From a virus, in the IMG/VR virus record IMGVR_UViG_3300005525_000097, positions 1 to 25,129 of that record: a DNA stretch of 25,129 nucleotides; one strand, 5' to 3'. Below are positions 1 through 25,085 of the stretch, one piece after another; the first letter of the stretch is position 1, and each line of letters opens with the position of its first letter. The position numbers and the translations under genes are program-made. The notes beneath the pieces are model-generated. The model made no database searches and was not told the DNA's origin. It saw only the letters and a program-made list of their open reading frames with translations.

Positions 1-303
1 TGGACCGGTGGGGCTTCAGGCTTCTTGGCCGTGACCGGAGGGGCTTGGACCGGTGGGGCTTCAGGGGCTTTCACCGTGGCCGTGACCGGTGGGACTTGGA
101 CCGGTGGGGCTTCAGGCTTCTTGGCCGTGACCGGAGGGGCTTGGACCGGTGGGGCTTCAGGGGCTTTCACCGTGGCCGTGACCGGTGGGACTTGGACCGG
201 TGGGGCCTCAGGCTTCTTGGCCGTGACCGGAGGGGCTTGGACCGGTGGGGCTTGGACCGGAGGGGCTTCAGGGGCTTTCACCGTGGCCGTGACCGGAGGG
301 GCT
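1..303 (-). repeat. In-frame tandem repeat of alternating 45- and 51-bp units (96-bp period)
   Basis: Units begin at 1, 46, 97, 142, 193 and 253, each opening with TGGACCGG on the plus strand; an extra 15-bp partial unit lies at 238-252. Copies are nearly identical at DNA level. Read on the minus strand they encode 15-residue (APPVTAKKPEAPPVQ) and 17-residue (VPPVTATVKAPEAPPVQ) units that alternate as a 32-residue super-repeat. All unit lengths are multiples of three, so copy-number changes keep the frame. The array continues past the left edge. The open plus-strand frames here are by-products of the repeat. Confidence 0.95.
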
Positions 304-932
304 TGGACCGGTGGGGCTTCCGGTTTTGTTTGGGTGGTTATTGCATCCCACTCTTCCAGCGTCATCGGGGCCTTTTGGACCGGTGGGGCTTGAGCCGGTG
401 GGGCTTCAGGGGCCTTCGTTTTGGGATCGGGCTTTGCGGTTCCCGTGTGCTTCTCGATCGCTTCCTTTAGCGTGTTAGCGAAGCCTTCGGGGTCTTCTTG
501 CAGGGCCCCCGATTCCGCTACGGCCTGCGGTGCTGTGGGCTTGTCTGTAAGTCGCTTGACCGCGTTGAGCCCCTCAATCACTGTTCGGGCCACGTCGACC
601 ATTGCCACGGCTTTTCGCACTAGGCCGCCGGTCCCGATGATATCATCAAGGGAAATTGCGGCTTTCTTTACCCGGTCAAAGTCTTTTTGAGATTCGGACT
701 TCTCATTGTCGTTGGGTCTCCGATCGGCCCGCTCTTTAACCGGGGTGGCACTGTCGGTTAGGGGGGCGGGTCGATCGGTTGGCTTCGGTTGGGGCGTGGG
801 AGTGGTGGCCGATACCGCCGGAGGGGGCGGAACGAATGGAGGCGGACTAGGCCCCGTATCCGGCTTCGCTGTTTGCGAGTCGGGCGGGGTTTCGTCCACC
901 AATACAATTTGAAAGCGTGCGCCTTCACTCAT
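1..932 (-). CDS. Pro/Ala-rich repeat tail protein, N-terminal part (tape-measure candidate)
   Basis: The reading frame starts with ATG at 932 and stays open to the left edge, so only the first 310 residues are visible. It begins MSEGARFQIVLVDE, followed by a Pro-rich stretch (residues about 15-65), a charged segment and a probably helical part (about 84-130, KDFDRVKK to AVKRL). From about residue 175 it is Ala/Pro/Val repeats such as APPVTAKKPEAPPVQ, interrupted once by MTLEEWDAITT (190-200). The start lies 6 bp after the stop of the tail-tube-like gene, with only a weak AAGAG upstream. A long gene after the tube gene is often the tape-measure protein or another long tail protein, but nothing visible proves that. 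No separate tail-assembly chaperone pair is seen between the two. The C-terminal domains, which would decide the function, lie outside the window. Confidence 0.8.
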   Translation of the reverse strand, partial: MSEGARFQIVLVDETPPDSQTAKPDTGPSPPPFVPPPPAVSATTPTPQPKPTDRPAPLTDSATPVKERADRRPNDNEKSESQKDFDRVKKAAISLDDIIGTGGLVRKAVAMVDVARTVIEGLNAVKRLTDKPTAPQAVAESGALQEDPEGFANTLKEAIEKHTGTAKPDPKTKAPEAPPAQAPPVQKAPMTLEEWDAITTQTKPEAPPVQAPPVTATVKAPEAPPVQAPPVQAPPVTAKKPEAPPVQVPPVTATVKAPEAPPVQAPPVTAKKPEAPPVQVPPVTATVKAPEAPPVQAPPVTAKKPEAPPV

Positions 933-7459: not shown

Positions 7460-7635
7460 TCGGTTCAGAGCGACAACCAAAGGTTGGTGAAATTCTTCAC
7501 CGATCTGGGGTTCGGTGGTTGGTTCAAGAAGTCATCGATGAAGGGAAGTACTGGAGGGTGGTGGCTATCTGGGATCGGCTTGGCCGCCCACCCTTGTGGC
7601 CTAAAGAGCCCCGGGCGTTCGTGGTTGGAAAATGA
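7456..7635 (+). CDS. Small hypothetical protein
   Basis: A 59-residue protein, MIGSERQPKVGEILHRSGVR at its N-terminus, with the beta-rich WLVQEVIDEGKYWRVVAIWDRL behind it; it resembles a small SH3-like barrel, but no family was recognised. The start at 7456 overlaps the upstream stop as ATGA. An in-frame ATG at 7444 has its purine run only one base away, which is too close. It is the last gene before the second promoter-like element. Confidence 0.65.
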   Translation: MIGSERQPKVGEILHRSGVRWLVQEVIDEGKYWRVVAIWDRLGRPPLWPKEPRAFVVGK

Positions 7636-7668
7636 AAAATGATCGGAAAATATCTCGCAATTTTGCCC

Positions 7669-7720
7669 GTTCCCTATTGCATCAATTTGGCACGGACGAT
7701 ATATTGTAAGTGTTGGGTTT
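7669..7720 (+). promoter_or_regulatory. Promoter-like element P2 (52-bp repeat, copy 2)
   Basis: This copy has TTGCAT (7677-7682), a 17-bp spacer and TATATT (7700-7705), giving a predicted start near 7712. It matches copy 1 at 51 of 52 positions; the one change, A to C, lies in the -35 box and in the 11-bp palindrome and weakens the palindrome. It precedes the gene at 7752. The 116-bp gap at 7636-7751 holds nothing else evident, and no hairpin terminator is seen upstream of it. Confidence 0.7.
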
Positions 7721-7751
7721 AGTTGGTTTGAAATGCGAAAGGGAAAATGAA

Positions 7752-7952
7752 ATGGGACAGTCGATTGAGCCGCTAATGTTCGACTCTGTGATGTCGATCG
7801 CTTTTATCAATCACGGTAGGGGGGATGACGTCGTCGTATGGGTTTGTGAGTCCCCGAAGGCTTACAAAGATGCTCTTGAAAGGCTTGCCGGACAAAAGCA
7901 TTGCAAGATTATACACAAAGGCGCAAGCGTCATAGTTCGAGAAGAAAGCTAG
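7752..7952 (+). CDS. Small hypothetical protein
   Basis: A 66-residue protein, MGQSIEPLMFDSVMSIAFIN at the start, then VVVWVCESPKAYKDALERLAG and a KIIHKGASVIVREES end: a short alpha/beta pattern with no known family. The ATG at 7752 has GAAAGGG eight bases upstream. A GTG at 7710 in the same frame is rejected because it lies at the predicted transcription start of P2. It is the first gene after that element. Confidence 0.72.
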   Translation: MGQSIEPLMFDSVMSIAFINHGRGDDVVVWVCESPKAYKDALERLAGQKHCKIIHKGASVIVREES

Positions 7953-7969
7953 AAATGGGGAGATGAAAA

Positions 7970-8275
7970 ATGAGCCAACCAAGTAAAAAATTATTCGATT
8001 CATTCCTGCGATGTAGCGAACTGGAATGCGTCCTGAGAAACTGGTCCACTGACGACCAAAAGGCAATGCGCGATTACACCCTCGACGAGTTGATCGGGCT
8101 TGCCAGGGAACGACTGGAAGAGTTCCGCGAATCTGGACACGTGCTGCATGAAGGGCGATTTTCGGACGATCCTGACGAACGTAAGTACTGCCGCGAAGAG
8201 ATGCGGAAGGTTCAGGTTTGGCTTAAAAAGGCCCAAGCCGAACGGGATCCAGTTTTTCAACACAAGGGAAAATGA
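7970..8275 (+). CDS. Hypothetical acidic helical protein
   Basis: The 101-residue protein is largely helical and charged: MSQPSKKLFDSFLRCSELEC, then YTLDELIGLARERLEEFRES and YCREEMRKVQVWLKKAQAER. No family was recognised and there is no membrane segment. GGGGAG lies seven bases before the ATG. It sits 17 bp after the previous gene and one base before the next start, in an operon from P2. Confidence 0.75.
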   Translation: MSQPSKKLFDSFLRCSELECVLRNWSTDDQKAMRDYTLDELIGLARERLEEFRESGHVLHEGRFSDDPDERKYCREEMRKVQVWLKKAQAERDPVFQHKGK

Positions 8276-16142: not shown

Positions 16143-16155
16143 GTTTTTCTCTCGC

Positions 16156-16602
16156 TTATGTCACGGAAATGTTGCGTCGAAGGTTGTCGGCTTGCAATTT
16201 CATCAATACAGGAATCTGGTCTGTAGCCGAGAATCCACCGACTTGAGATTGGTTAGTCACTGTGGTGACTGTCCCCACGTTCCACGTTCCGGACTGACCA
16301 GCGTTGACGAGCAGGTTCGAAGCAAGAGGTTGCCGAACCTCCATGATGGGCCAACCAGCAGCAGACGGCAGCGCCATTCCGATCGTCCGCGTCAGCGATT
16401 GGATAGCGACTCGCATTGCTTCGATCGCTTCCATCAATTCCCCGACTCCCTGGACTGGCAATCCGTTTGATGAAGACACGTCGCCATCGTTGATGCCATC
16501 CACACCGTGGATCAACTTCACACGTTGGAACAGATTGCCGCCAATATCGTCGGCAGCGATTGTCGCTCCGGTTCCTGGCGTGTAGCCTACGTTATCTGGC
16601 AT
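16156..16602 (-). CDS. Small virion/tail protein
   Basis: The 148-residue protein begins MPDNVGYTPGTGATIAADDI and continues GGNLFQRVKLIHGVDGINDG, the start of a phage protein type often found next to tail fibres. A helical middle (ELMEAIEAMRVAIQSLTRTI, about residues 55-74) precedes a beta-rich end (SGTWNVGTVTTVTNQSQVGG). Nine bases separate it from the fibre gene upstream, with AGGA before the ATG. I cannot name its function. Confidence 0.78.
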   Translation of the reverse strand: MPDNVGYTPGTGATIAADDIGGNLFQRVKLIHGVDGINDGDVSSSNGLPVQGVGELMEAIEAMRVAIQSLTRTIGMALPSAAGWPIMEVRQPLASNLLVNAGQSGTWNVGTVTTVTNQSQVGGFSATDQIPVLMKLQADNLRRNISVT

Positions 16603-16611
16603 ATTTGAGTC

Positions 16612-17583
16612 CTAAGTGTATTGCAAATAAATGTCGCCATCGGCCCCGCCGCTCGGCGAAGCGGTACCCGATGTGATTGCCTTTTGACCGCCGATTAAGC
16701 TTCGAACCGCCGGGCCATCAGCTTGAATCAAAACCGACCGACCAAAAGCCGTGGTAGAAAGATCCGCGATTGCCGTTAGATCCGAGTCCAACGGTTGAGC
16801 ATCGGAAATGCCATAGCCCGAGAGTGTGGTTGGCTTGCTGGCCAGGGCCGCAAAAGTCCCATCGAAAGACGAAGTCCCCGCGCCAATCAAAGTGCGAATT
16901 GCTAAGCCATCGGCCTGGGTCAAAACCGACCGACCAAAAGCCGTGGTAGAAAGAGCCGCGATTTCCGTTAGATCCGAGTCCAACGGTTGAGCATCGGAAA
17001 TGCCATAGCCCGAGAGTGTGGTAGGCTTGCTAGACAAAGCCGCAAAAGTCCCATCGAACGAACTCGTTCCCGCACCAATCAAGGTTCGAATCGCCGGGCC
17101 GTCGGCCTGGGTCAAAACCGACCGACCAAAAGCCGTGGTAGAAAGAGCCGCGATTGCCGTTAGATCCGAGTCCAATGGTTGAGCATCGGAAATGCCATAG
17201 CCCGATAGTGTGGTTGGCTTGCCCGTGGTAATTTCAGACCAAGAATGAACGTGCGCAGACGGTTCAAACGTCGACGGCACTCCGGTAAGCTTAGACCACG
17301 CCAAAGAAGTGATCCAAGCCGGATTAGAATAACTGCCAGATGTCGAAACAGAATCAAGAGTCGCATTGACCCAGTTGGTACCATCGAAACGCAAAAGCTG
17401 GCCGGTGGACGGCGAAGTGATCACCACGTCCGTAAGCCCGTCCAAGTTTGTCGCGCCACCACCACCGCCGCCGCCGCCGCTAACAATCGGACCCGCCACA
17501 ACGTCAATCGAAAGGGCCGATGGTGGGGCGACGTCAACGGAAATTGTTGGTGGTGGGTAGACGTTGACCGAAAATTGGCTCAT
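16612..17583 (-). CDS. Tail fibre protein with GYGI repeats
   Basis: A 323-residue fibre. The N-terminus (FSVNVYPPPTISVDVAPPSA) has a repeated VDV pattern, then a GGGGGGGG run and the NLDGLTDVVITSPSTGQLLR block common in fibre proteins. Three copies of a 64-residue repeat follow, containing KPTTLSGYGISDAQPLDSDL and TTAFGRSVLTQADG. The end, AITSGTASPSGGADGDIYLQ, is typical of fibre C-termini. The start overlaps the previous stop as ATGA. No receptor-binding domain is visible, so it may attach another tip protein. Confidence 0.88.
   Translation of the reverse strand: MSQFSVNVYPPPTISVDVAPPSALSIDVVAGPIVSGGGGGGGGATNLDGLTDVVITSPSTGQLLRFDGTNWVNATLDSVSTSGSYSNPAWITSLAWSKLTGVPSTFEPSAHVHSWSEITTGKPTTLSGYGISDAQPLDSDLTAIAALSTTAFGRSVLTQADGPAIRTLIGAGTSSFDGTFAALSSKPTTLSGYGISDAQPLDSDLTEIAALSTTAFGRSVLTQADGLAIRTLIGAGTSSFDGTFAALASKPTTLSGYGISDAQPLDSDLTAIADLSTTAFGRSVLIQADGPAVRSLIGGQKAITSGTASPSGGADGDIYLQYT
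16680..17225 (-). repeat. Three in-frame 192-bp repeats in the fibre gene
   Basis: The block ACCAAAAGCCGTGGTAGAAA starts at 16741, 16933 and 17125, exactly 192 bp apart (64 codons). The copies are nearly identical at DNA level, pointing to recent duplication or gene conversion. The third copy runs into the non-repeat part near 17225. Confidence 0.93.
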
Positions 17584-17954
17584 CGAGTCACCTCGGACGA
17601 AACTTCAACGATGCCTTCGAGAATCCGTTCCTTACTCCCGCCCGGCTTTATCCAATCGATGTCGTAGACGTATTGGCTATCGCTGTCCGAAGGCCTCGGG
17701 CCTGCCGGTATGGCCGCCGTGACCGTGTTGGCAAGTGAGAACGTCACTTTGTTGGTCGTGGTGTTGACCGCCACAACAAACGAGCAAACAACTGTCGGTG
17801 AATCCTTTGTTTTTCGGACTTGACCTTGGAAACTGCTCCCGGTCAAACTGACCACGGCCCCAACGGAATCTTTCAGGTCCATTTCAAACGAAAAATCGGA
17901 GCCCTGGTTTATGGCTAGCTTGGCGTTCGCTGCGCGGGATCCAATCGTTGGCAT
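17580..17954 (-). CDS. Small baseplate/fibre-associated protein
   Basis: This 124-residue protein begins MPTIGSRAANAKLAINQGSD and has the layout of a common phage tail protein: INQGSDFSFEMDL, VVSLTGSSFQGQVRK, YVYDIDWIKPGGSKERILEG and the ending VEVSSEVTR. Family members are beta-sandwich proteins near fibres or baseplates. The stop overlaps the fibre start as ATGA, and the ATG directly follows the stop of the gene at 17955, so it is translated as part of the same run. Confidence 0.82.
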   Translation of the reverse strand: MPTIGSRAANAKLAINQGSDFSFEMDLKDSVGAVVSLTGSSFQGQVRKTKDSPTVVCSFVVAVNTTTNKVTFSLANTVTAAIPAGPRPSDSDSQYVYDIDWIKPGGSKERILEGIVEVSSEVTR

Positions 17955-18269
17955 TTATTGAACCTCTTTCCTGATTTCACACCTACTTTGCCTGACGTCT
18001 TCCACCCCCTGATGAAGTCGATCCATATCGGATCGAATACCAGTGATGTCGTCCGCAATCTTGTCCAGTGCGTTGGCTGTGTTGTCGAGCGCCTTGGCCG
18101 TCGACGTCATGTACTCGCTCATGGTCACAATATGAGCCGTGGCCGCGTTTTTAAGTGGGATGATGACATGTTCAAAAAGGACGTTGCAAATCCGCCATCC
18201 GGCTATGCCAATTGCAATCAAAGCGACCACGGCTAGGCCCTGGTTCACCCATCGCATTGCTTCATCCAT
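17955..18269 (-). CDS. Small membrane-anchored coiled-coil protein
   Basis: The 104-residue protein has one N-terminal membrane segment, GLAVVALIAIGIAGW (about residues 11-25), and a long helical part: TAKALDNTANALDKIADDIT with heptad spacing (about 56-75), then RSDMDRLHQGVEDVRQSRCE. It resembles spanin or holin accessory proteins in shape only. GGAAG in the GGGTGGCAC-type leader lies before the ATG. It ends the membrane-protein block and joins directly to tail genes. Confidence 0.78.
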   Translation of the reverse strand: MDEAMRWVNQGLAVVALIAIGIAGWRICNVLFEHVIIPLKNAATAHIVTMSEYMTSTAKALDNTANALDKIADDITGIRSDMDRLHQGVEDVRQSRCEIRKEVQ

Positions 18270-18282
18270 GTTCGATCTGCTT

Positions 18283-18298
18283 CCAGTGCCACCCAGAA
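18283..18298 (-). promoter_or_regulatory. GGGTGGCAC leader element before the gene at 17955
   Basis: On the minus strand it reads TTCTGGGTGGCACTGG, followed by a GGAAG Shine-Dalgarno site 10 bases before the ATG at 18269. It shares the GGGTGGCAC core with the leaders of the decoration and capsid genes. It occupies most of the 39-bp gap after the stop of the CGPC protein gene. Confidence 0.45.
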
Positions 18299-18308
18299 GC
18301 GAAAATGC

Positions 18309-18800
18309 CTACAAGCCCCCGGCGGCCTTGTAGACTTCAAAGTCCAACCTTGTTTGGAAGTCAAGCCATTTCTTACCGTCCCACACTTTCCAATATGGTG
18401 TGGGTTGGCTTGTTTGACTGATTTCCTTTTTTACTTGCCAACCCGCCCGAATCCACTCGGGAGCGCTGTCCCTCCACCATTGTTCGCAGGGACCGCACCC
18501 TTCAAGCGAAAATAGAATCACCGTTGGTTTCATGCTCGTAGTTATTGTTTCGCTTCCTGCTTTCAATTCGGGGCTACCGACCGGATCTTTGATCCTGTTG
18601 ATAAGCCTTTCCAACGTCGAAAACTTTCGGTCGTGCTGGCCAAGAATCTCGTCGGCTTGCTGTAAGTATCTTTCAACTCTTGTGAATTTCTCTTCGATGA
18701 ATTTCCAAGCTTGGTAGCCCTTCCAACCGACAAAAAGGACAAGTGCCAAAGTCAGAAACATAACCAACGATCGGACAATGGACGCAATGGATTCAATCAT
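18309..18800 (-). CDS. Membrane-anchored thioredoxin-like protein with CGPC motif
   Basis: The 163-residue protein has an N-terminal membrane segment, LVMFLTLALVLFVGW (about 12-26), a helical linker with heptads (FIEEKFTRVERYLQQADEIL, 34-53) and a C-terminal domain starting TVILFSLEGCGPCEQWWRD. The CGPC motif (C102-C105) after a beta strand is the thioredoxin active site; a TPYWKVWDGKKW segment near 140 would hold the cis-proline region. A disulfide-reducing or -exchanging role is inferred. It is coupled to the two-span membrane gene by ATGA. The domain is short for thioredoxin, about 75 residues. Confidence 0.82.
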   Translation of the reverse strand: MIESIASIVRSLVMFLTLALVLFVGWKGYQAWKFIEEKFTRVERYLQQADEILGQHDRKFSTLERLINRIKDPVGSPELKAGSETITTSMKPTVILFSLEGCGPCEQWWRDSAPEWIRAGWQVKKEISQTSQPTPYWKVWDGKKWLDFQTRLDFEVYKAAGGL

Positions 18801-18994
18801 GGTTCCCTCTTGCTGTAAATCACGCCATCAATCACAAACATGGCCGCAAAAATAACGGCCATGGTTCCGATGGCCTTTCCTACAGTCCCAGGGCCCGCGT
18901 ACCCCCAAATCCCAGCAATCCCCATAGCCATGCTGGCCAATGTCAATACCGCCAGCACAAGCTTTACATGCTTTGACAGAACGGGCTCGATCAT
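18797..18994 (-). CDS. Two-span small membrane protein, holin-like
   Basis: A 65-residue protein with two membrane segments, VKLVLAVLTLASMAMGIAG (about 10-28) and IGTMAVIFAAMFVIDGVIY (about 42-60), short charged ends and a GYAGPG turn. Size and layout fit a class II holin, which opens the inner membrane for the lysin, but many small phage membrane proteins look like this. It lies directly after the papain-like peptidase, coupled through ATGA, and before the CGPC protein. Confidence 0.75.
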   Translation of the reverse strand: MIEPVLSKHVKLVLAVLTLASMAMGIAGIWGYAGPGTVGKAIGTMAVIFAAMFVIDGVIYSKREP

Positions 18995-19851
18995 GTTTGC
19001 AACTCCGGTGGATTGTCACCCTCTGGGTCATCGATCGAACCGCGAACTAGGTAGAAAGCGTGATACCGTGAAGTGGTTCGCAAGTGACGGTTCCAGGAAA
19101 CCCAACCCCGCCCATCGTCGCCATACCTACGGCCCCAACTGTTGACCATATCAAACTGCCATTCGCCATTATGGAATCGAATATCATCGACCCCCACCGC
19201 ATGGTTTCCCGGTCCATCTGTTCGACCTACAACACCATCAGCGTCGATGGATTCAAACCCGCGTGCGACGTGAACCGCAATCACGCCCAAGAACCCCGCA
19301 CAAAGGCCGCTAGCCAACTCGTCTTCGGTGTCCACTCGATAGCACTCAAGGGCCTTGAACCGTGCCATGGCCGCCTTGGCTTCGCTGGAAATGCGGTTCC
19401 ATAGATACTCTTCATGAGGGACCAAGGCTTCGGGCGGAACTCCGGCTTCCGTCATGGCCTTCATGCCTCTATCAAGCATCGATCCGCCATCCCTCCCGCC
19501 GTTGATCTGCGCGTAAAGGCCTTCCCCTGAAAGCCTCACCCGCTTTCGGCCCGCCTTCACTCTGGCCTTTTCCAACGTGTGGGCCCCGGCGTAACCGTTG
19601 CAAGAACCTCGGCCACCTTGGTTCCTGATGTAGTCCGCCGCCGGGAAAAGGATCCTTGCCGGTGTCCTCGGCTTGTGGTTCAGAATCCCAAGCCGCTCGT
19701 CCTTGGTGAACATTTTGGCCATTGGCGCATCAGCGTAGGCCGAGAACGTCTCGGGACGAAATTCGGGGACCAAGCACCCTAATTGGATCGGGGTGCCTTG
19801 CCAATCGAAGTACTCTCGTCCCTCGCTATCTTTGGAAATCCCCGCACTCAT
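18991..19851 (-). CDS. Papain-like (C1-type) cysteine peptidase
   Basis: The 286-residue protein has the full papain active site in the correct order: Gln78 and Cys84 in NQGGRGSCNGYAGA, His217 in GPGNHAVGVDD and Asn237 in VNSWGRRYGDDGRGW. The NSWG and GxGW spacing is classical. It is about family length without a long propeptide; the N-terminal 70 residues may act as one. No signal peptide is visible. It cleaves protein substrates; a role in lysis or envelope breakdown is inferred from the flanking small membrane genes and the lack of any recognisable lysozyme or amidase in the window. It is coupled by ATGA on both sides. Confidence 0.9.
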   Translation of the reverse strand: MSAGISKDSEGREYFDWQGTPIQLGCLVPEFRPETFSAYADAPMAKMFTKDERLGILNHKPRTPARILFPAADYIRNQGGRGSCNGYAGAHTLEKARVKAGRKRVRLSGEGLYAQINGGRDGGSMLDRGMKAMTEAGVPPEALVPHEEYLWNRISSEAKAAMARFKALECYRVDTEDELASGLCAGFLGVIAVHVARGFESIDADGVVGRTDGPGNHAVGVDDIRFHNGEWQFDMVNSWGRRYGDDGRGWVSWNRHLRTTSRYHAFYLVRGSIDDPEGDNPPELQT

Positions 19852-20240
19852 CGACCCGTAGCCTCCCTGACGATCGCATCAATCCCCTCGGTGGTCGCTG
19901 GAATCGGCTTGGCCGCTAGTAGCTTTCCCTCGGGATCCGCTATCACAAGAGCCGGGATCCCCGCTTCCCTGGCTGGCTTGGCGTAGCTTGCTGCGTCTGG
20001 AGCGTCGACGTCATAAAACCGCCACTTGAGCCCCCGCGATTCCAGCCCTCGCCAATAGTCTGCTTCGCTTTGTACTCTTGCCACCGCTGGGGACCGCTCG
20101 GCGGTTTCTTCGACGACAACCACCCAAGCCCCTTCAATGTTGACGGGTGGGTTGACCATCGGGACGGATCCAACCCATGGCGCGACCATTAGCACAAGGC
20201 CGCCGATCACCATGAGCATTGCCGGGGCCGCTTTGGTCAT
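19848..20240 (-). CDS. Membrane-anchored thioredoxin-fold protein without cysteines
   Basis: The 130-residue protein begins MTKAAPAMLMVIGGLVLMVA, a membrane anchor or signal segment (about 5-24). The rest has a thioredoxin-fold pattern: AWVVVVEET, WRFYDVDAPDAASYAKPARE and GIPALVIADPEGKLLAAKPI, with the proline before the fourth strand where thioredoxins have cis-Pro. It has no cysteine, so it cannot do redox chemistry and may bind a partner. The start at 20240 overlaps the previous stop as ATGA; ATG at 20255 with AAGGA upstream is an alternative adding five residues. Confidence 0.75.
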   Translation of the reverse strand: MTKAAPAMLMVIGGLVLMVAPWVGSVPMVNPPVNIEGAWVVVVEETAERSPAVARVQSEADYWRGLESRGLKWRFYDVDAPDAASYAKPAREAGIPALVIADPEGKLLAAKPIPATTEGIDAIVREATGR

Positions 20241-20569
20241 GAAGGCTTTGGCCATGAGGGGTTTGTATCCTTGCTGGCAAAGACCGCTTGGACAAGCTGC
20301 CTAACCGCCGCCTTGCCCTCCTCTGAGCCGATCGACTCAAAGTAGGCCATCAGGGCTTCGGATTGGGAAAGCGCTTCCATGCGCGTTTGAGATGCCTTTT
20401 GGGCGATGTTGACATTCTGCAAAATTTTCGACAAGTCGCCCGGTGTCAGAGCGTCAACGAGTCGGATGGCTTGTTGTCCTTGGGGCTTTGCCAACCAAGT
20501 CATGGCCGCCCAAAAGAGACCAACCAAAAAAATCAAACCGCCGATGGCTGAAAGTATGGCTTGGATCAT
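20237..20569 (-). CDS. Single-span small membrane protein
   Basis: A 110-residue protein beginning MIQAILSAIGGLIFLVGLFW, an N-terminal membrane segment (about 4-24), and then a soluble helical part (TPGDLSKILQNVNIAQKASQ, EGKAAVRQLVQAVFASKD). No family was recognised. The start at 20569 overlaps the stop of the HTH protein gene as ATGA; a longer reading from 20707 would overlap that gene by more than 140 bp and is rejected. It is the second gene in the membrane/peptidase block. Confidence 0.75.
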   Translation of the reverse strand: MIQAILSAIGGLIFLVGLFWAAMTWLAKPQGQQAIRLVDALTPGDLSKILQNVNIAQKASQTRMEALSQSEALMAYFESIGSEEGKAAVRQLVQAVFASKDTNPSWPKPS

Positions 20570-21174
20570 TCGTCGTTTTCGATTCCGTTTAGGGTCCCTA
20601 GAACTTCGGAAAACACTTCCTCGAATGCACTCGGGAAGATCGGGTCCGTGATCGATGAAGGTGCGTTCGTTCCGCTGGCCACCCACCAAGCGAACAAGAT
20701 CAAGCACAACCGGACCAAGAGGGCAACCATCACGGGGGACAACCCTTTGACCCGTTCATCCTCACGAACAAGGTGTTCGAAAAGTTCGACGCTGGGGGCC
20801 GACCGCTCAAAAGCGCTGACCGAAATTTGGAAAATCGTTTCGCGATCTGGAAACATGCGTCCATCCTGCAAAGTGCGCGCGAGGGGTAACCGGTCGAGAC
20901 TGCCCCATCTTTGACTTCCAAGCCCCCCATTGCAAGCTTCTCCAGCCAGGGGGCCCCTTGTGTCCCTCTCCAAGCCGTGATCGAGTTCTTGGCGGGTTTT
21001 GACCCAGGCTTCGATCTGGTCCCAGGTCCAGTACGCCCGCCGCCCCATCGTCTTTCGCGGCTCGGGAAGTTTCCCGGCCCGCTTGTACCGCTTGAGGGTC
21101 CGGGTTGAGAGCTTCACCGCTCGGGCAAACTGCTTCATGTCCACCAACTCCAATTCGACCCGTTCCGCATCCAT
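20566..21174 (-). CDS. MerR-type HTH protein with a C-terminal membrane segment
   Basis: The 202-residue protein has an N-terminal helix-turn-helix, MKQFARAVKLSTRTLKRYKR (about 13-32), then AGKLPEPRKTMGRRAYWTWD and QIEAWVKTRQ as in MerR/HTH_17 domains. The middle is unassigned. Near the C-terminus lies a strongly hydrophobic stretch, VMVALLVRLCLILFAWWVAS (about 148-167), long enough to span the membrane. AGGAG eight bases before ATG at 21174 decides the start; an upstream ATG at 21207 has none. It could be a membrane-tethered regulator of the downstream block, acting at the repeats in its own leader; that is an inference. Confidence 0.8.
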   Translation of the reverse strand: MDAERVELELVDMKQFARAVKLSTRTLKRYKRAGKLPEPRKTMGRRAYWTWDQIEAWVKTRQELDHGLERDTRGPLAGEACNGGLGSQRWGSLDRLPLARTLQDGRMFPDRETIFQISVSAFERSAPSVELFEHLVREDERVKGLSPVMVALLVRLCLILFAWWVASGTNAPSSITDPIFPSAFEEVFSEVLGTLNGIENDE

Positions 21175-21244
21175 CCCGATTTCTCCTTTTGGGGCTTTTT
21201 CCAACATTGCCGTTTTGTAATTTTCCCTTTGGACTCTAGTGGCC

Positions 21245-21293
21245 GTGGGTGTAGGGGAGGGAGCCTAAGCGGACTCCCCGTAACCCCACCCAC
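21245..21293. other. GC-rich stem-loop in the leader of the HTH gene
   Basis: On the plus strand the outer arms are GTGGGTG (21245-21251) and CACCCAC (21287-21293). The inner arms are GGGGAG near 21254 and CTCCCC at 21274-21279, around a loop with TAAGC. There is no following T run on either strand, so it is not a classical terminator. In the minus-strand transcript it would lie about 70-120 bases before the HTH gene start and could act as a leader structure or attenuator. Confidence 0.5.
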
Positions 21294-21330
21294 GTAAGTC
21301 CACCGGGGCCGATTCGGACCACTTGTTTTC

Positions 21331-21400
21331 GACCTGTTCCCGACCTGTTCCCAGATCACCAAACCCCGTAGGGGTGGGAACAGGTTTTTGGGAACAGGTC
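21331..21400. repeat. Paired direct and inverted 11-bp repeats (operator, origin or terminator candidate)
   Basis: GACCTGTTCCC occurs twice in direct tandem (21331-21341, 21342-21352). Its inverted form follows twice: GGGAACAGGTT (21376-21386, one mismatch) and GGGAACAGGTC (21390-21400). Between the pairs lies ACCCCGTAGGGGT (21363-21375), itself a small hairpin. The outermost right copy overlaps the stop of the primase-helicase gene. The 11-bp phasing suits protein binding on one DNA face; position beside replication genes and the HTH gene suits an origin, an operator or a termination structure. Confidence 0.8.
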
Positions 21401-23294
21401 AAACCGTGATCAAGTGCCACTGTTTTGCCCCCCTTTTTCCGGTATCAAAAGCGATCAAATTTTCGTAAGCCAAGGCCTCCAAAATCGACGTCAAATCGCC
21501 CTTCCGAATCTTCAATTCACGCTGTAGGTCCGAAGTGCTAACGGCGGGATTTCCGCCGATAGCTTCTAACACCCTTCCCCTCAAATCGGCGTTTTCGGAC
21601 CCCTTTTCGGCCTCCGTTTTGGCCTTCTTGGCGGCCTTCTCAAGCTCGTCAAATTCGGTCACGGATCGAAGGGTTGATTGCCAAGTTCGGTGCGGGTAAA
21701 CACCATCGAAGGCCTCCAAAATGTTCAAACCTTGGTGACCGGCGGACCCGCCCCAAGAGAACCAAACCTTATGGCTTCCGTCCTGCTTATAAGCTTCTCT
21801 TCTCTTGAGAAGTAAGAATTGGCGGGCAAATTCTGCCATCCCTGACTGCGAAAGATCCTCAAGTTCGGGGGCTTCGCTGTAGGTCCTGCCGGTCTTTCGG
21901 AAGTGATGCAAGAGGATCAAGGTAATCCCGGCGCGGTGGATCCGCTCGGCAATGAGTTCGAGCTTTTCGCCCATCGCGTAGATGTTGCTGGCGGCCTCAC
22001 CGGCTCGGAGTGACCGGTAGAGTGGGTCGATAAAAACCGTGTCGATTTCCTTGTGTGAAAGCTCTTCAATCAAATCGTCTACGCATTTTGCATTGTCCAG
22101 CTTGGGAAGCTTGAATCCGATTTCCAGCCTATCAAGTTGGTGGGCTTGGATCCCACGGGCTTCCGCAATGGCCCGCATCGTGCTTTGGAGCGTACTTTCC
22201 CCCGACTCCCCGGATATGATCATGCAAGGCCTTGGGTTCGGCACAGCGAATTTCCCGAGGAATGGCGTACCCGTCACAATGCTGACCGCCATGTCCAAAG
22301 CAATCGACGTTTTTAGCGTCTTGGAAGGCCCACCGATCACCATCGGTTCGTTGGCCACCATGAAGCCTTCTATGATGAACGTGCGTTCAATGGTCTTGTG
22401 GAATAGCTCCGCGCCGGTGATTGCCCGCGTCTGGTACTTGTTCGGGTCGAAGCCGTTGGCCTGGGCCAGCCGCTCAAGAAGCTTGATTGTGCAAAGTTGG
22501 CCGGACTCCCTCTTGAACGAGTCCCACTTGTATTCGCATTCGCGTTCCGAGTACTTGGGCGAACTGCTGGACCACTCCATCCACCGTTCGAGCATTTTGG
22601 TAGACGAATCGCACCAATGGAGTGCCATCCCGACCTTGATCCATTCGTGGTAATCGTCTGCAATGTCTTCGTGGATGTGATCTAAAAACTGAAGGGCCCG
22701 GTCCGCGTCGTCGTTGAAGGGGTCAATCTTCGTGACGTCGTAAATGGGATCCGATAACATCGTCTGAAGAGCGTAAAGACCCTCCCGCTGCCCCGTGATC
22801 TCCTTGGCCGCCCCCACTCGTTGGCCTGTTATTGTGAAATAGCGGTTGGTAGTCGCCCCGTCGTACAGTTCCACCCCCTTCTTGTGGCTGATTGCTTCCA
22901 AGTTGGGGTTCAGTTTCCCCGCCGCTATGAGCTTCACGCCCGTACTGCTCGGGGACTGCTCGGCATACGTGGGGAGCATTCCAAGCACCATCTTGGCTTG
23001 GTTGGTGAGGGTTCCTTCCTGGATGCAATCGTCCAGGTCGATTCCCACCATGCCTTCCGGGAGAACAATACCAATCCCATCGAAGAGCCCCTCGGCATGA
23101 GCCATAAAGGCTTCGTTGAAGCTGGTCCATGTCTCCGGGTTGGCCGTCGATGCCGCGCGGCCGTTAGTCTGCTTCGGGGGCTTGTCCCATGATCCGTTCC
23201 GATGTTCCCACTTCCAAACAAGCCATCGATCCATGGCCTTCAGCGCTTGGGGGATGTGCTTCGGATCAACGTCAATTCGCGTTGGCTTGTTCAT
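21399..23294 (-). CDS. Primase-helicase (PrimPol-like N-terminus, RecA-type helicase)
   Basis: The 631-residue protein has three parts. The N-terminal region contains GIGIVLPEGMVGIDLDDC (73-90, acidic motif DLDD) and YDGATTNRYFTITGQR, as in PrimPol-type primases. A PriCT-like linker (about 200-285) holds EWIKVGMALHW and EYKWDSF. The RepA/AAA-type helicase has Walker A GGPSKTLKTS (321-330), Walker B DTVFIDP (418-424) and LILLHHFRKTG. A winged-helix end (STSDLQRELKIRKGDLTSIL) completes it. It would prime and unwind phage DNA. It overlaps the helicase gene by 23 bp. No DNA polymerase gene is in the window. Confidence 0.9.
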   Translation of the reverse strand: MNKPTRIDVDPKHIPQALKAMDRWLVWKWEHRNGSWDKPPKQTNGRAASTANPETWTSFNEAFMAHAEGLFDGIGIVLPEGMVGIDLDDCIQEGTLTNQAKMVLGMLPTYAEQSPSSTGVKLIAAGKLNPNLEAISHKKGVELYDGATTNRYFTITGQRVGAAKEITGQREGLYALQTMLSDPIYDVTKIDPFNDDADRALQFLDHIHEDIADDYHEWIKVGMALHWCDSSTKMLERWMEWSSSSPKYSERECEYKWDSFKRESGQLCTIKLLERLAQANGFDPNKYQTRAITGAELFHKTIERTFIIEGFMVANEPMVIGGPSKTLKTSIALDMAVSIVTGTPFLGKFAVPNPRPCMIISGESGESTLQSTMRAIAEARGIQAHQLDRLEIGFKLPKLDNAKCVDDLIEELSHKEIDTVFIDPLYRSLRAGEAASNIYAMGEKLELIAERIHRAGITLILLHHFRKTGRTYSEAPELEDLSQSGMAEFARQFLLLKRREAYKQDGSHKVWFSWGGSAGHQGLNILEAFDGVYPHRTWQSTLRSVTEFDELEKAAKKAKTEAEKGSENADLRGRVLEAIGGNPAVSTSDLQRELKIRKGDLTSILEALAYENLIAFDTGKRGAKQWHLITV

Positions 23295-24678
23295 CGCTTT
23301 CCTTGTACGTCTTCAGAGCGTCAAGGAAAGACTTTTGAGAACTGTCCTTTGACTCGATTCGATCCTTTACCGCCACGTCGACGGTCCTATTCGCCAATAT
23401 CCGGTGAACTCGCACTTGTCCCGTGACCCCTTGGCGGTGGATCCGAGCATTGAGTTGCAAATAGACTTCCAAGTCATCAGTAAGGCCCATCCAAATAATG
23501 TCACGCCCGGGCCCGGCTTGCATGTTGACCCCATGAGAAAGCGCTTGCGGCTGAACGGCCAAGATGGGGATACCCCCTTGGTTCCACTTCTCCACAATCG
23601 AATCCGTTTCCTTGGCGTTCACACTCCCATCGATGTGGGCAATGTTCCCAAAAGTGTTCTTGAGCCGTTCAAGGTCATGCTTGTATTGAAACGCAATCAA
23701 TACCGGCTTGCCGTTCAACTCTTCCACAAGGTCTTTAATAGCTTCGACCTTGGCCGTGTGGATGTGGTGGACCGTTCGGTCTGCGTCGTAAAGGCCACCG
23801 TTGGCCAACTGCTTGCAAGCGAGATACTTCGAACCCGCATTCAAAGGGGTGAAGGTCCCTTCATTCTCAAGCTCAAGAAACATCTTTCTTTCCAAGGTCT
23901 TGTAGTCCTTGAAAACGTCCGGTGGAAGGTCCACCCACACGTCATTGACCAAAAGGCTTGGTAGGTCCAAGTGATCCGCTGCGTCCATACGAAGACAAGC
24001 GTTGGCTATCAGGGATTCAATTTCTTCTTTCGCGCCTTTCAGGGGGATCCGCTCGTAGCCTGAATAACCCCCGCGATAAAAGTACCGCGTTTGAAACTTG
24101 CTGATGACCGCCCCAAGGCTAGCCCCTTGGTCGACGATAAACATTTGCGAGAAAAGGTCCTCGATGCTCCTGGGGCTCGGGGTTCCCGTAAGGATCAAAC
24201 GCCGTTGGAAGTTGGGGATCAATTTCTTCAAGGCCTTGGTCCGCTTTGCGCCCCATTGCTTAAACTTGCTCGACTCGTCGACCACTAGCGTTTGGAAGTC
24301 CAGCGTCTTGAGCTTGAAATAGCTGGTCAACCACTCCACTCCCTCGGGGTTGATCAAGTAAATGTCCGCTGGGGTGGCCAAGGCCTTCAATCGCTGCGTG
24401 GGCGTACCGTGAATGATGCTGACCTTGAAGTCTTGGAACTGATCCCACTTCTTGACTTCCCTTGGCCAAACGGAATAGACCACCCGCAAAGGGGCGATGA
24501 TAAGGGTCTTTTGAGAAAGCCCTAGGATCTTCAAGAGCCGAAGCCAAGCCAACGTGATCGACGTCTTCCCAAGGCCAGGATCCAGAAAGAAAGCCCCACC
24601 TTCATGGCCGTCAAGGATAGTCCTTTGGACCAGCCACTTGAGCGCGAATTGTTGGTATTTGTGGGGCTGGAACTTCAT
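23272..24678 (-). CDS. SNF2/SF2-family DNA helicase
   Basis: The 468-residue protein carries the SF2 motifs: Walker A DPGLGKT (33-39), LIIAPLRVV (Ia), the DEAD-box variant DESS (134-137), LTGTP (163-167), and a C-terminal helicase half with PVLIAFQYKHD, GVNMQAG and the arginine-finger motif ARIHRQG. Phage SNF2-like proteins unwind or remodel DNA in replication or recombination. ATG at 24678 overlaps the upstream stop as ATGA; a start at 24693 would add MDGTI. It is followed by the primase-helicase. Confidence 0.92.
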   Translation of the reverse strand: MKFQPHKYQQFALKWLVQRTILDGHEGGAFFLDPGLGKTSITLAWLRLLKILGLSQKTLIIAPLRVVYSVWPREVKKWDQFQDFKVSIIHGTPTQRLKALATPADIYLINPEGVEWLTSYFKLKTLDFQTLVVDESSKFKQWGAKRTKALKKLIPNFQRRLILTGTPSPRSIEDLFSQMFIVDQGASLGAVISKFQTRYFYRGGYSGYERIPLKGAKEEIESLIANACLRMDAADHLDLPSLLVNDVWVDLPPDVFKDYKTLERKMFLELENEGTFTPLNAGSKYLACKQLANGGLYDADRTVHHIHTAKVEAIKDLVEELNGKPVLIAFQYKHDLERLKNTFGNIAHIDGSVNAKETDSIVEKWNQGGIPILAVQPQALSHGVNMQAGPGRDIIWMGLTDDLEVYLQLNARIHRQGVTGQVRVHRILANRTVDVAVKDRIESKDSSQKSFLDALKTYKESDEQANAN

Positions 24679-25085
24679 GATAGTTCCATCCATGTTCTAT
24701 ATTCGATCGGCAAGGCTAATAGCAAATCTTTGTTGCATTTCACTTCCGTGGTGGCGTTGATTACTTCCACTGTTTGAAGCAAAGTAAGGCCGTGGAGGGC
24801 CCCCTTTTTACCCCGAATGGCTTTCTTTAATGCAGACCATCCGCGCTCCGTTAAACCCGTGGCCTTTGTCGGCTTTCTTTTTTTCAATCGTAGCCAATAC
24901 TTGCAATGTGATTCCGCCGATGTACGAATGTCGACCAAGGAAACGTCAAAGTCCTTGAAACAATAGTCTCGGACTTGAGCGACTGAATACCCCCCCATCC
25001 AAAAGTAGATGTCCCCTTCGACTAACTTCTTTCCAATTTCATCCAAGGTCAACTTAGGTCCCTTAGCTTTCTTCGTTCGCATCAT
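24675..25085 (-). CDS. Hypothetical basic protein, start uncertain
   Basis: With the start at 25085 it has 136 residues; the frame stays open to the right edge, so a longer form is possible. It begins MMRTKKAKGPKLTLDEIGKK and has a lysine-rich middle (YWLRLKKRKPTKATGLTERG) and a SALKKAIRGKKGALHG stretch. No family was recognised; basic character and position before the helicase suggest nucleic-acid binding. The ATG is preferred because no ATG lies upstream in the window and TGATG would overlap an upstream stop. Its own stop overlaps the helicase start as ATGA. Confidence 0.65.
   Translation of the reverse strand: MMRTKKAKGPKLTLDEIGKKLVEGDIYFWMGGYSVAQVRDYCFKDFDVSLVDIRTSAESHCKYWLRLKKRKPTKATGLTERGWSALKKAIRGKKGALHGLTLLQTVEVINATTEVKCNKDLLLALPIEYRTWMELS

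Follow-up and report, generated by a model that had tools for sequence, protein, structure and literature searches.

The described systems closest to the locus reported here are the C1A papain-type peptidases, such as xylellain, and the canonical holin-endolysin-spanin cassettes of phages. PeiW and PeiP, the pseudomurein endopeptidases of methanogen viruses (family C71), are thiol-dependent, papain-like enzymes used for wall lysis. In phage P1, the thiol/disulfide state of the catalytic cysteine of the signal-arrest-release (SAR) endolysin Lyz controls lysis. The locus treated below is a block of genes in the virus record IMGVR_UViG_3300005525_000097 (positions 1 to 25,129), referred to here in its full length of 25,129 bases as the window. 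Only part of a tailed phage genome is covered by the window, which includes genes for terminase, major head protein, head-tail adaptor, helicase, primase, and tail fibres. The proteins at issue are a papain-type peptidase, P0001, and a thioredoxin-fold protein, P0004, encoded next to it.

As read from the sequence, seven coupled minus-strand genes at 17955–21207 encode, besides one C1A peptidase, six proteins that each contain a membrane segment; two of these (P0004 and P0006) are thioredoxin-like. The gene joints are mostly 4-base ATGA overlaps, for example at 20569/20566 and 19851/19848. Genes and order are as described in the original prediction, which was made from the sequence of the window and proposed a lysis or envelope-entry system in which a cysteine peptidase replaces the murein hydrolase and a CGPC protein maintains its active thiol.

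The peptidase and its exported partner

P0001 is 286 amino acids long and possesses the complete catalytic set claimed for it, with Gln78, Cys84, His217, and Asn237 present in that order. Across a 28-sequence alignment of the peptidase, the Gln, Cys, and His are invariant and the Asn nearly so. The protein matches PF00112 at 27.4 bits (cut-off 20.7) and a PDB profile at E 8e-23, and it carries the NGG substrate motif of C1A proteinases (LS...NGG) as well as an N-terminal extension. Its AlphaFold model, with a mean predicted local distance difference test (pLDDT) score of 90, has a papain fold, and the best solved-structure matches returned by Foldseek are xylellain (3ois, E 1.2e-12) and mite and cathepsin papains. 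Catalytic set, above-cut-off family profile, and modelled fold place P0001 among the C1A peptidases, and proteolysis is its predicted activity.

Relatives of P0001, referred to as type I peptidases, were found at 44 viral loci with a 10-sequence alignment, at identities down to ~25% and on contigs whose lengths range from <10 kb up to 341 kb. When viral and genome collections were scanned with single proteins, no relatives were returned; alignment-based scanning of the viral contigs recovered them, and a narrow two-sequence alignment found none in genome contigs. The collections of cultured phages and plasmids contained only LR756511, a 595-kb phage that also encodes a relative, plus distant C1 peptidases of Persicobacter and Leptospira. 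One locus (L057, 4651–6552) is interrupted by an intein (PF14890, E 5.8e-10) with a LAGLIDADG-like part, which lies directly before the catalytic Cys of the peptidase, its +1 residue.

The gene for P0004 lies just upstream of the peptidase gene and is coupled to it by ATGA. Residues 40–135 of P0004 are modelled with pLDDT >90, and the top Foldseek matches are mostly thioredoxins. Both thioredoxin-like proteins of the original prediction were recovered, P0006 by its CGPC motif and P0004 by predicted fold, though CxxC is absent from P0004 and from the aligned domain of its homologs. Going by the predicted fold, P0004 is best regarded as a thioredoxin fold acting as a partner domain, and it is not classed as an oxidoreductase.

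A profile of this thioredoxin-like domain, run over all open reading frames (ORFs) of the loci, matches 43 of the 44 type I loci, including loci outside its training set such as L038, L044, L050, and L062. The match lies directly upstream of the peptidase or is fused to it (~200 bases upstream in L062), and occurs nowhere else in the loci examined. L050 is a natural fusion, in which a membrane anchor, the thioredoxin-like domain (114–203), and the peptidase (237–499) form one protein. An export signal is carried by the partners in the forms read by eye, be it a signal peptide, an anchor, or a lipobox (L074). P0004 and the peptidase form a conserved two-gene core, in which the closest partner of the enzyme is the CxxC-less thioredoxin-fold protein rather than the CGPC protein.

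Terminase relatives of the window were fetched to see what the locus contains where the type I peptidase is absent. One of them (G071) has the same peptidase and partner as the window. Another (G072, 73% terminase identity) has at the same place a divergent papain-like peptidase, designated type II; before it stands an anchored helical protein where the thioredoxin-like partner would be. The Gln, Cys, His, and Asn are conserved across this second type, which is also found in G094, G097, and G098 (~57% terminase identity to the second phage group). As read by eye, the partner in G097 and G098 has a similar exported N-terminal domain and a helical C-terminal domain instead of the thioredoxin-like one. 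A scan for type II peptidases gave 110 relatives, 80 of which were kept for counts. Thioredoxin partners, present in nearly every type I locus, were found in 0/80 type II loci, whereas helical partners, as detected by two small profiles, were found in 60/80 type II loci and in no type I locus. A profile of TM-A, the membrane protein encoded by the first gene of the block, matches 8 type I and 25 type II loci versus 0/80 control loci. Across these loci, the type of partner switches with the type of peptidase, and the membrane genes around them are retained. This co-swap inside a stable frame is the strongest evidence that peptidase and partner work as a pair. Whether or not it serves lysis, a co-exchanging peptidase-partner module spread across very different phages is, to the extent covered by the searches made, undescribed.

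PHROG 16701, annotated as "peptidase", is matched by the window peptidase, one type II peptidase, and the LR756511 homolog.

The block is also conserved as a unit. Two relatives with 73% terminase identity, G003 (38 kb) and G004 (29 kb), share it with unchanged gene order at 31–64% identity, minus only the 65-amino-acid two-span gene. In G011 (44.6 kb) and G012 (42.5 kb), the thioredoxin-like, peptidase, and CGPC genes adjoin the tail fibres; both contigs look near-complete, because their ends fall inside or near tail-fibre genes. With >120 uncultured phage contigs carrying it, the cassette appears from sequence to be a widespread modular system, not a feature of one phage.

The remaining genes of the cassette

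The genes of the block, together with the first tail-fibre gene that borders it, are as follows, all on the minus strand.

20566–21207, minus: MerR-type helix-turn-helix (HTH) joined in frame to the ~96-amino-acid protein TM-A, which has one C-terminal membrane segment (PF00376, 29.5 bits)
20237–20569, minus: 111-amino-acid protein with an N-terminal membrane segment and a helical tail (homolog in the equivalent position in G003/G004, 43% identical)
19848–20255, minus: P0004, exported or anchored partner with predicted thioredoxin fold and without CxxC (AlphaFold2, Foldseek, profile)
18991–19851, minus: P0001, papain-type (C1A) peptidase without signal peptide (PF00112, catalytic residues, AlphaFold2)
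18797–18994, minus: 65-amino-acid two-span membrane protein, holin-like by size and topology only (sequence)
18309–18800, minus: P0006, N-anchored CGPC thioredoxin-like protein (sequence; homologs in relatives)
17955–18269, minus: P0007, N-anchored coiled-coil protein, spanin-like (sequence; weak phrog_739)
17580–17954, minus: LtfC-like tail-fibre assembly protein, first of the tail-fibre genes bordering the cassette (phrog_3304, E 9e-13)

The first gene was originally taken for a small membrane protein. The membrane segment is there, but a MerR-type HTH is read through in frame as well, and the TM-A part begins at the internal ATG of MFPDRET... In G003, HTH and TM-A are separate ORFs in the same frame (7589–7828 and 7904–8203), which suggests that the joined form in the window is due to a recent loss of a stop codon or to a sequence error. 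The 111-amino-acid protein has no family match in Pfam or PHROG.

Neither library gave a match for the 65-amino-acid two-span protein. Its size and topology agree with the holin-like character first ascribed to it, but no holin family is matched, and since it is missing in the closest relatives (G003 and G004), it is not a core part of the cassette. In G072, whose cassette is of type II, the small membrane protein does match a holin family (phrog_9987, E 2.9e-4). The two-span position in G071 (L333, 2515–3045), between the peptidase and CGPC genes, is taken by a plasmalogen-desaturase-like lipid desaturase (PF10520, E 6.5e-37).

P0006 contains CGPC and has no thioredoxin match in Pfam. A homolog in G003 is 31% identical, L020/L022 and G071 encode CGPC proteins in the corresponding position, and the CGPC protein of L027 matches PF00085 (E 8.8e-8). 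This protein is less constant than P0004: by rough counts from automatic ORF calling, exported CxxC proteins lie downstream of the peptidase in 29/36 loci of type II and 5/22 of type I, versus 6/93 random anchors. In LR756511 (L031, 9280–11856), two exported proteins with CxxCH haem-binding-like motifs are encoded directly downstream of the peptidase region.

P0007 has a 42% identical homolog in G003 and a weak match to the Rz-like spanin family phrog_739 (E 0.06). Anchored coiled-coil proteins with an EC(R/K)xxR spanin-like motif were called downstream in 12/58 loci versus 0/93 random anchors, again by rough automatic ORF calling.

Several observations concern genes outside the cassette. Just upstream of it in group 2 phages (G016, L083, 10812–15039) are radical SAM/SPASM and glycosyltransferase-like genes. 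A tail-side gene at the left edge of the window (3–932) has Pro/Ala-rich APPVQAPPV repeats. In G003 (29752–36807; L015, 10752–17807), G012 (L079 14368 to L080 1441), and G010 (16147–24954; L018/L019), one ORF encodes a protein of 2351–2935 amino acids that joins a Mu-like portal (PF06074) to a DarB-like antirestriction methyltransferase/helicase (phrog_10089), and in G003 and G010 the proline-rich N-terminus of this protein is related to the window repeats. Close to their head genes, G012 (L080, 1829–3238) and G010 (25285–26820; L019) also encode a zeta-toxin-like kinase domain that follows a proline-rich region; PF06414 was matched in the Pfam scan of G012.

Lysis and other readings of the cassette

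No peptidoglycan hydrolase domain was found by Pfam and PHROG among the window proteins scanned, in agreement with the original statement that the window has no endolysin. Whole-Pfam scans of 24 large ORFs of the near-complete G012 and of 37 ORFs, mostly from G016, likewise yielded no peptidoglycan hydrolase. The original prediction had named two findings that would speak against it, namely a classical endolysin/holin pair elsewhere in the genome and a peptidase that is a virion protein or lies in unrelated neighbourhoods. Neither appeared in the small phages, the former as judged by the Pfam scans of G012 and G016. In a wider comparison, SLT, Amidase_2, and phage lysozyme occurred in 0/29 records of a peptidase set, which includes G010 (a relative not covering the locus) and whose records are not independent, versus 9/30 random contigs of similar size (Fisher P 0.002). 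M15 was found in 0/29 records of this set and M23 in two, LR756511 and, weakly, a 188-kb record. The difference in classical lysin families between the peptidase set and the random contigs is moderate; a strong reading of the missing endolysins was toned down because the three families are present in only 30% of control contigs.

The best of the explanations considered is that the block, which borders tail-fibre genes in the window and its relatives, is a late lysis or envelope-disruption cassette in which a C1A peptidase, accompanied by a cognate exported partner, fills the enzyme (endolysin) slot. On balance we judge this probable, with lysis and the substrate being what we infer. The peptidase would be made in the cytoplasm and exit by way of a holin-like protein. 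At the outer face of the inner membrane it would encounter its partner, which may hold, fold, or restrain it, and it would then cut proteins of the envelope or peptides of the wall. The exported CxxC thioredoxin could keep the catalytic cysteine reduced or open disulfides of the substrate, and the spanin-like coiled-coil protein would finish the outer membrane. The substrates of a papain-type enzyme are most simply proteins or peptides in the envelope, though wall peptides may also serve. A more specific version is put forward only tentatively: that phages from ~40 kb to several hundred kb widely share a lysis system which breaks the envelope through a C1A proteinase acting on envelope protein, not on peptidoglycan, controlled by a co-exchanged exported partner domain and helped by an exported thioredoxin.

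The original lysis proposal is supported in part, by the conserved unit, the lack of an endolysin in the Pfam scans of two relatives, the PHROG holin and the spanin-like proteins in the cassettes of relatives, and the exchange of two papain-like types at the locus. Several points weigh on the other side. M23 is present alongside the peptidase in the 595-kb phage LR756511, with the weak M23 match in the 188-kb record, and a diverged lysin may have gone unrecognised. Besides their lack of independence, the 29 records include several fragments, and they are set against a control rate of only 30%. The window's own holin candidate matches no known family, and many type I loci have no exported CxxC protein, as the automatic count indicates. 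C1A enzymes are not known to cut peptidoglycan. The support as a whole consists of sequence, predicted fold, linkage, fusion, and co-swap, from which function is deduced.

The export of the partner, and the L050 fusion, which amounts to a membrane-tethered protease, would also suit a regulated envelope protease with no part in lysis. The anchored pair would then remodel or remove surface proteins during infection or lysogeny (e.g., to exclude superinfection, take over the host, or protect the exit route), with the thioredoxin-like protein as anchor or inhibitor. G003 and G012 are temperate-like phages that encode an integrase, and in the 595-kb phage the peptidase coexists with M23. This account is nonetheless rather unlikely: the block adjoins tail-fibre genes and has holin- and spanin-like genes with it, it occurs also in very large phages, and no other lysin turned up in the small ones.

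The arrangement of the pair also recalls a zymogen or a toxin and its inhibitor. The partner is encoded upstream with ATGA coupling, is fused N-terminally in L050, where the pro-domains of C1A enzymes sit, and changes with peptidase type. As a trans-acting pro-domain, the thioredoxin-like or helical partner would fold and inhibit the peptidase until triggered on release into the envelope, a scheme compatible with lysis. However, the partner is exported and the peptidase has no signal peptide, so the two would meet only after release, and the idea is given a small chance. A true endolysin, C1A-derived and cutting wall peptides in the manner of CHAP or NlpC/P60 of the papain superfamily, would share the cassette position and the missing classical lysins; since P0001 matches C1A proteinases in both sequence and fold, down to the NGG substrate motif, its chance is slim. 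Although tail-fibre and LtfC-like genes adjoin, a virion maturation or entry protease is very improbable, as the exported partner is expected to act in the infected cell and the neighbours are membrane genes, not morphogenesis genes, with head genes elsewhere in the genome; a head protease was rejected on the same gene neighbourhood.

If the lysis reading is correct, the cassette represents a protease-based way of bursting bacteria and helps to explain why such phages lack an annotated endolysin. It would suggest hosts that rely on protein for the strength of their envelope, in line with the protein-rich envelope of the original prediction, and would offer a new class of enzyme as an antibacterial candidate, with a partner-enzyme pairing that is directly testable. 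Planctomycetes were considered as hosts, their walls having been described as protein-rich in older reports (PMC3422733). A planctomycete host free of peptidoglycan is less plausible, since planctomycetes do have peptidoglycan (PMC4432640) and nothing here ties the phages to them.

Comparison with known systems

Literature searches found no description of such a peptidase cassette. P0001 resembles xylellain and other C1A peptidases (MEROPS C1A, PF00112) in its catalytic Gln/Cys/His/Asn, LS...NGG motif, fold, and N-terminal extension. It differs from them in being encoded by a phage, in having no signal peptide, and in its conserved exported partner gene. The window peptidase belongs to PHROG 16701 by match, and the library describes no function, partner, or cassette for that family.

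PeiW and PeiP belong to another family and act on another substrate, and no exported thioredoxin-fold partner is known for either. Lyz of phage P1 differs in having a lysozyme fold and in keeping control within one protein. The likeness to canonical holin-endolysin-spanin cassettes lies in the small membrane proteins, the single soluble enzyme without a signal, the anchored coiled-coil protein, and the compact overlapping genes near tail genes. In contrast to those cassettes, the block described here has no peptidoglycan hydrolase and encodes instead a cysteine peptidase, its partner, and an exported thioredoxin.

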